Assembly: GCA_034670405.1 (NCBI GenBank)
Contig: JAXDDX010000331.1
Coordinates: forward strand, 1-64,000
DNA: 64,000 nucleotides
Direction of reading: 5' to 3'
Source of the DNA: Hoplostethus atlanticus
Taxonomy: Eukaryota > Chordata > Actinopteri > Trachichthyiformes > Trachichthyidae
Part shown: positions 38,401 through 41,400 of the stretch, piece by piece
Numbering within the stretch: position 1 is the first letter of the stretch
How the letters are laid out: every line of letters begins with the position of its first letter
Program-made: the position numbers and the translations under genes
Notes under the pieces: generated by a model
Told to the model about the DNA's origin: nothing
What the model saw: only the letters and a program-made list of their open reading frames with translations
Database searches by the model: none

Positions 38401-41400
38401 ATAAACCCGGCCCGGGTCTTGACAGCTGTGTGTCGTCGGCGCCGTCTCCCTCCGCTGGCGTCCTCCCTCGGTCCCGGTGGGCCAGCCATGGAGCCCCAAG
38501 GCTGCCCCAGCCTGCCAGGCTTCCAGGGGCATCCCGCCCCAACCCTGACTTTGCAGGCGGCTCCCGACTGCGCCTCCGCCGACCTCCACTTGGCGCCGCG
38601 GCAGGAGACGGCCCGCTCCGTCTCTCCCGTTGGTGCTGGCCCCGTCTCTCCGCTCCACAGACAGCCGACCGGATCCACCATCCCTGTCGGCTCCACGGTC
38701 ACACTGCCAGTCTCTCACCCTGGCGCGCACCCACTCACGCATTCACACACACATTAAAAAGGCCCCAGCTGCAATCAGTCCCAACGGGCTGCAGCTGGAA
38801 CCGGATCCAGGGAAGAAGCAGTCCACTAACTCACCTCTCTCCTGGATCCAATTAAGCCTCCCCCCACCCTCCCTCCAGTCCGCCACATACCCCCACCGCC
38901 AAAATGAGGCCGGGGAGCCGTCCGACCGAAGCCAACTCCCCCACCCCCCTTAGCGAGCGAGGATGAAGGCGAAAGAGAGTCTTGCCCGGAACGGCTTGGG
39001 TCGGTGGGGCCAGGTGATGCTGCGAGGTGGTGAAGGAGGCTCCTTGCCATCACCGGCCGTCCCCTGGCAGCTGGTGTCGCCACGACGGCGCAGCGATGGC
39101 GATGTTCTCCCGTCTCTGCCTGTCGATTCCCGGTCATGGAACCAAATGTGGCAAGGTGCCACATCACCGGGGTCCGTGACAGACAAAGACATACACAGGA
39201 GGAGAGTTAAGTGGCCAGCACGGCCGTTTTATTCACCCATAATAAACCCGGCCCGGTGTTGACGGCAGTTGGCGCCATCTTCCCCGGCGTTGACGGCAGT
39301 GAAGAGCGCCGTCCTCCTCGGCGCGCACACCTCCTCCCTCCAGGCAGGTCAGCCGCGGAGCACCAAGGCTGCCCCAGCCTGCCAGGCTTCCAGGGGCATC
39401 CCGCCCCAATCCCGACTGGTCAGCCCTTGCAGGCTGCTCCCGACTGCAACCTCCGGAGCTCGGCCGGTCGCCGCTGGCTTTGGACGCCCTCTCTCCCACT
39501 CCGTCGTTCGCCGCTAGCACCCTCGCCTCCGTCCCGGCACTCCAGACGTGGCTGCTGCTGGCTCATTGTCCTCCTCCCAGTCGACCCCCGATCCTCCCGA
39601 TCGCCTGTCGACTCCATTCACGCCACCAGCCTCTCACACTGGCGCGTCCCTCTCGCTCACACATCCACACACAGGTTAAAAAGGCCCAACTGCAATCAGC
39701 TTTAATTGGCCGCAGCCGCTGAGACCAGCCGAACCTACCACCCCACCTCCCCCCAGTCCGCCACAATTACTTAAATAGTTCTGGATAAGTGTTGTAAATA
39801 TGATTTAAACAATTTAAATAGTTCTCAATACAACTGGTTGGTTTCTTTTGGAGTTTAGAAACGAGACATGGAAACTTGTGTGTGTGTGAATGTGTGGGTG
39901 TCGGTGTATGTCCGTGTATGTTTGTGTGTGTGTGTGTACCTAGGTCATAGAGACGTTCTATGGTTATGATGAGGAAGCTTCTGTGGACTCCGATGGTTCT
40001 TCTCTGTCGTTCCACACTGACCGAACCCCCGACACCGAACCAGAGGAGGTATATACACACACACACACATACTATCCACACACAGAAACAGTGGATATCA
40101 ACAGTCTACACACCCATGTCCAGGGTTTGTTAACTGGCTGGTTTACTGGTTAACTATCTGTGTGCAGGGTTGTGTTCGTGAGGAGGCGGAACTGCGCTAC
40201 AGACAGCTAACTCAGGAATACCAGGCATTACAGCGGGCCTACGCTCTACTGCAGGAGACGGTGGGAGGAAGCTTTGACGCAGAGAAAGAGATCAAGGTAA
40301 CAACGCTAGAGAAGGAGATCAAGGTAACAAAGCTAGAGATGAAGATCAAGGTAACAAAGCTAGAGAAGGAAACCAAGGTAACAAAGCTAGAGAAGGAAAC
40401 CAAGGTAACAAAGCTAGAGAAGATCAAGGTAACAAAGCTAGAGAAGGAAACAAAGGTAACAAAGCTAGAGAAGGAAACCAAGGTAACAAAGCTAGAGGAG
40501 ATCAAGGTAACAAAGCTAGAGGAGATCAAGGTAACAAAGCTAGAGAAGGAAACCAAGGTAACAAAGCTACAGGAGATCAAGGTAACAAAGCTAGAGAAGG
40601 AAACCAAGGTAACAAAGCTACAGGAGATCATTACATTACATTCCAGTCATTTAGCAGACAGCTTTTATTCAAAGCGACTTACAATAATTGCATTCAACGT
40701 AGGTACATTTAAACTCGATGCAGAATTAAGTTGTGCTTTTCTATTGAGAGTAGTAGGACAATCATTAATCAACACTTATGTCAGTCCTTGATTATGGGGA
40801 TATTATGTATATGCATGCTGCCCGAACAACTCTGAAGTCACTTGATGTAGTCTACCACAGTGCGTTGAGATTTATTACTTGCAATCAAGACTCATCACTG
40901 TTATGAGAAAGTGGGCTGGCTTTCACTTTATGATAGAAGGGAAAGACATTAGGCCTCATTCACGAATCGTTCACAAGATCAGATTTGATCATAAAGCATA
41001 AAGTTTCTACGAACATAGTCTCATTCTTCATTTTGTTCATATCTGAATTTGTTTGTTTGTAAACATGCGGGAAGGCTCTTAGATGCCTTATTCTTTGGGT
41101 TGGGGTTATCAATCAAGTTAAATCAATTAGAGTAGTGCCAAACCTCATTAACAACAAAATGTTTCAGTGTCCTACATTTGTAGAAACAAAAAGAACTAAT
41201 AAGCTGCAATGGCATATTTGCAGAATTGTCCTTATTTATTATAGCAATACGAGATGATCCAACTTGTAATGGGTTGATCACATGGACTGAACGCCTCACA
41301 AATACAATAACATAGTCCTAACATCTGATGAAGATGCAGCCTGGATCTGATCTGTATACAACTCCAATGCCGACTGGACACCCAACAGTAGCTGGTGAGA

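Follow-up and report, generated by a model that had tools for sequence, protein, structure and literature searches.

Minisatellites that carry splice donors have been described in human genes. In ABCA7, the VNTR of intron 18 has a 25-bp unit that begins with a donor GT and is present in 12 to 427 units; by the account in PMC5954066, a donor-shift transcript keeping one unit is formed beside canonical splicing, and allele length affects the skipping of exon 19 and not the one-unit retention. In human IFI6 (6-16, G1P3), whose minisatellite is described by Turri et al. 1995, a pair of downstream repeat units reportedly act as donors, with three mRNAs as the result. A review of intron gain (PMC3443670) also describes tandem duplication of AGGT segments, in which one copy turns into an acceptor and a new intron is formed. 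Moreover, the prawn Rlec lectins are described with in-frame coding repeats of 30/33 bp, variable in number, which lie in exon 2 and were shown in cDNA (PMC7536079).

In our study, a minisatellite at an exon end of the jakmip3 gene was analysed in a window of 64,000 nucleotides of Hoplostethus atlanticus DNA. Its repeated unit includes the exon's own donor, as in the donor-spanning minisatellites of the ABCA7 and IFI6 kind; on the published accounts such arrays are already known in these two human genes, and jakmip3 is a further case. The array resembles that of ABCA7 in standing directly after an exon and in having its own donor within the unit. However, the jakmip3 unit takes in exon bases, unlike the ABCA7 unit as described, and its lengths of 27/24 bp keep the phase, whereas the 25-bp unit of ABCA7 puts the one-unit isoform out of frame. 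With IFI6 it shares a minisatellite supplying multiple splice donors, although IFI6 is reported as an interferon-induced human gene whereas jakmip3 is a fish gene with 13 candidate donors. The likeness to the reviewed AGGT duplications lies in the tandem copying of an AG/GT segment, which multiplies the candidate splice sites; on the other hand, a purine-rich sequence precedes each AAG/GT in jakmip3, and only extra donors are to be expected. By inspection, no pyrimidine tract was found before any AAG/GT of the array, and recursive splicing or intron gain was set aside on this ground. The Rlec repeats resemble the array in keeping the frame; they are of coding type and vary in number, but as described they lie within exon 2 and are not presented as a splice-border array, whereas the jakmip3 array spans the border. 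Among the literature matches listed for jakmip3, no title concerned a repeat.

The gene on the plus strand of the window is, by its predicted protein, probably a jakmip3, as a preliminary description of this DNA had named it. Its exon matches (+) span about 2337 to 62855; of the relative that served as query, the final 36 residues had no match. A protein model built by script from 18 approximate exons scored 256.4 bits for PF16034 (JAKMIP_CC3) against a cut-off of 30.2, and the top relatives in the protein search, taken by name rather than from a tree, were JAKMIP3 of Centroberyx gerrardi (first) and of C. affinis. From these matches the host is probably a beryciform or another related spiny-rayed fish. 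The stretch 40165-40296 is 97.7% identical to C. gerrardi JAKMIP3. The exon before the array, numbered 11 in the preliminary description, is followed by an exon opening with ACC AGA GAG CAG (TREQ), and the features are collected in Table 1. Further JAKMIP copies of the assembly are found on C150 and C29. At 2324-2380, by eye, the start codon (2324) of ATG TCA AAA CGA does not share the frame of the conserved reading, and a run of seven G lies between them; this run is perhaps an assembly error.

Table 1. Features of the jakmip3 exon border and of two further border arrays in the same gene (positions in the window)
Feature	Positions	Strand	Remarks
jakmip3 exon GCVREEAEL...DAEKEIK	40168..40296	+	phase 0 at both ends; part of the PF16034 match
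Donor 1, GTAACA	40297..40302	+	canonical by comparison with relatives' proteins
Candidate donors 2-13, identical 9-mer AAG/GTAACA	40324..40614	+	
Minisatellite, 27/24-bp unit, across the exon end	40281..40630	+	TRF and unit listing
Sequence after the truncated last unit	40631..40760	+	right end arbitrary
Following jakmip3 exon	42059..42142	+	acceptor ctctaccag/ACC; phase 0; ends ...NQQGL
In-gene array, 40-bp unit x2.8	25234..25344	+	spans the donor of exon 25134-25247
In-gene array, 84-bp unit x2.4	35414..35621	+	spans the acceptor of exon 35559-35696

Thirteen occurrences of the motif AAGGTAACA were counted in the window, always on the plus strand and between 40294 and 40614; 0.90 occurrences are expected from shuffled sequence, and none of 100 shuffles reached 13. 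The donor GTs stand at 40297, 40324, 40351, 40378, 40405, 40429, 40456, 40483, 40507, 40531, 40558, 40582 and 40609, with spacings of 27, 27, 27, 27, 24, 27, 27, 24, 24, 27, 24 and 27 bp (eight of 27 and four of 24). All distances between donors are multiples of three, each of the 13 candidate donors has phase 0, and no stop interrupts the exon frame within the array. The GT list, the spacings and the frame count thus agree with the preliminary description, which had claimed 13 in-phase donors, units of 3n length and no stop in the exon frame, and its range of 9 to 104 residues that candidate donors 2 to 13 would add was obtained again from the donor positions. As the same 9 nt stand at every one of the 13 donors, the motif itself gives donor 1 no advantage and the choice of donor must depend on context.

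The seed of the array consists of the last 16 exon bases, AGAGAAAGAGATCAAG, and 11 intron bases, GTAACAACGCT. Within the shared 16, a single base distinguishes the first unit from the exon end. In its form, the array resembles an exon border duplicated in tandem. The limits given by TRF are 40281 to 40620 or 40630, depending on the period, and the start lies inside the exon. Amplification of the exon end, as first described, was borne out, with the array start now moved to 40281 within the exon; of the 13 units formerly counted, the 13 donors stand, and the units themselves are 12 complete donor-to-donor units, to which come the seed at the exon end and a truncated final copy. Several unit variants follow one another in irregular order, the flanks are clean on both sides, and by eye no single-base run in the unit exceeds three. 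Other sequence, resembling an interspersed fish repeat, begins at about 40631, after the truncated last copy. With at most one mismatch allowed, the 18-mer core of the unit has 13 matches in the 633-Mb assembly, all inside the array, and its backwards control pattern gave two. This search of one assembly revealed no second copy of the array, and a dispersed repeat family was rejected because the 18-mer, within one mismatch, was found only in this array.

The in-phase, open state of the array may appear to speak for a coding role. Frame +2, too, is free of stops over the 12 units, as is one of the three minus frames; because frame +2 is equally open, the exon frame of the array is not special. 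An open frame as a sign of coding was rejected on this ground, together with the finding that all 17 placements of a 27-bp window at the array's donor are open. A further enumeration took tandem duplications of 10-60 bp per unit at 16 of the 18 jakmip3 donors; those at 20690 and 61726 were left out as no GT follows them. Of 20,400 such duplications, 5,627 (~28%) were both of 3n length and open, and 80% of those of 3n length were open. Since both length forms are multiples of three and the 24/27 difference amounts to one extra 3-bp change, the joint chance is below 28%; if the units were copied from one another, few independent events would be needed. The distinct differences from the consensus unit comprise five changing and two silent ones; the fraction of changing differences to be expected is 0.73. 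They look near neutral, and this 5:2 ratio gives no sign of purifying selection on the encoded peptide, at the low power that seven differences afford. None of the seven falls inside the 9-nt donor motif, for which (18/27)^7 gives ~0.06 by hand; the clean motif is a weak hint of constraint on the donors, or it could reflect recent copying.

Two other arrays in jakmip3 also span exon borders. The 40-bp array holds donor copies with GT at 25248, 25288 and 25328, its unit is not a multiple of three and, by eye, a TGA stands in frame before its second donor. In the 84-bp array, the acceptor and a coding stretch are copied upstream of the real exon, and by eye the reading from the upstream copy of the acceptor (after 35474) would be AGG ACA ATC AAC TGA. 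With the frames read in this way, both arrays are unusable in frame, so that one of three border-spanning arrays of the gene is in phase and open, which is near the chance expectation. The open +2 frame, the ~28% rate, the near-neutral differences and these two unusable sibling arrays together indicate that the in-phase open state is probably luck and not design. An unusual concentration of arrays at the jakmip3 exon borders was also considered and rejected: for periods of at least 20, arrays span 3 of 35 borders, where random shifts give 1.85 (P=0.30), and P is 0.38 for periods of at least 10 and 0.25 for at least 24. These figures come from an approximate border list, in which the exon ends 20690, 46286, 54917, 61646 and 61726 are off and the exon pieces 37536 and 37758 are absent. 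Arrays at borders are thus ordinary in this array-rich window. A 59/47-bp tandem array was also seen at 55034-55437, starting about 16 bases past the exon end at 55018. At 31533-31629 a 33-bp (3n) tandem array has an open frame with RQISxxNKQEL-like repeats, and no exon was found there.

For the comparison with relatives, a protein query made of the exon before the array, the insert and the next exon gave 1,337 matches among 8,000 scored candidates. The direct join of DAE(K/R)E(I/M)K to TREQL is present in all 120 best of these 1,337 relatives (several isoforms per species), and neither VTKLE nor VTTLE occurs in any of these 120 predicted proteins. As all of them join without the insert, donor 1 is the ancestral junction. 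In the JAKMIP genes on C150 and C29 the exon ends at the same place, and no such array is found there. A similar array elsewhere in these two paralogues was looked for and rejected, as none of the 36 exon matches found in 40 kb has a clear border-spanning one; GT-rich arrays adjoin one acceptor and sit between two exons. Long-period arrays make up only 248 and 201 of 20,000 bases each in the paralogues, and since these are far poorer in such arrays, their absence says little about base rates.

Taking these observations together, we consider it probable that the array is a minisatellite formed by duplication of the border, with donor 1 dominant, donor 2 used at a low level, later donors used rarely and the phase owed mostly to luck. 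A 27-bp segment across the border would have been tandemly duplicated head to tail and expanded, presumably by slippage or unequal exchange, while a 3-bp loss would have given the 24-bp form, so that the 13 donors would be identical by descent. The normal protein would be made from donor 1; donor 2 may act at a low level, adding VTTLEKEIK (+9 residues), and later donors may act rarely. Such extra isoforms would be in phase and harmless, and the lucky phase would let the array be tolerated. Use mainly of donor 1 with some of donor 2 is expected because of the one-unit retention described for ABCA7 and the downstream units described for IFI6, and by this analogy some use of downstream donors in jakmip3 is plausible. 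The two downstream units said to be used in IFI6 exceed the use predicted here, and this counts against the duplication reading as stated, as do the motif shared by all 13 donors, the lack of unit differences within that motif and the joint chance below 28%.

A purely neutral intronic array, with donor 1 as the sole donor used, is the alternative that survives best and is nevertheless unlikely. It agrees with the donor 1 junction in the best 120 of 1,337 relatives' proteins and with the persistence of two border arrays that are unusable in frame, but donors 2-13 carry the exact 9-mer of donor 1, and the second repeated donor of ABCA7 is reported to be detectably used.

The preliminary description had proposed a length-variable exon. 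In its functional form, where the donors would be used by tissue or allele and the insert length would tune the JAKMIP3 scaffold, this appears distinctly improbable, even though all 13 donors are in phase and open, all 13 copies keep the donor motif unaltered and downstream units of human IFI6 are said to act as donors. As a selected feature it found no support: phase and openness have a chance of ~28%, the unit differences are near neutral, frame +2 is as open, the insert is lacking in 120 of 120 of the best relatives' proteins and the sibling arrays are unusable. The predicted insert of 104 residues contains 32 K, 21 E, 19 T, 12 V and 12 L, so its K/E-rich character, as first described, holds, whereas its fit to a coiled coil is doubtful. 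Its hydrophobic moment at the helical angle is 0.20 over 104 residues and 0.33 for four 9-residue units, whereas the flanks of 28 residues each (start of the preceding exon and next exon) reach 0.87 and 0.57; the comparison is weak, as short stretches score higher by chance and both flanks peak at other angles. The 9- and 8-residue units break the heptad; the predicted insert might be helical, and an obvious extension of the coiled coil is doubtful. More doubtful still is an adjustable exon of jakmip3 in this fish lineage, in which allele length and splicing-factor balance would set the number of 8-9-residue K/E-rich blocks, up to 104 residues. An assembly artefact, with the array or its copy number wrong, is scarcely credible: the 7-G run that puts the ATG out of frame by eye suggests base-level errors, but the several unit variants, their irregular order, the clean flanks and the lack of any run above three in the unit (by eye) speak against it.

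At present the array serves above all as a clear case in which the frame has been kept, probably by chance. It also offers a natural test of the choice by the splicing machinery among 13 identical donors without a frame penalty, which the out-of-frame ABCA7 array cannot offer, and any use of the extra donors would reveal one way for minisatellites to extend coding exons.

A scan for bacterial promoters and terminators, irrelevant here, was empty. Long open frames resembling endonuclease/reverse transcriptase (by eye) lie antisense between jakmip3 exons at 43488-45929 (-) and 31776-34013 (-), and frames resembling a broken Tc1-type transposase (by eye) lie between jakmip3 exons at 48356-49405 (+).
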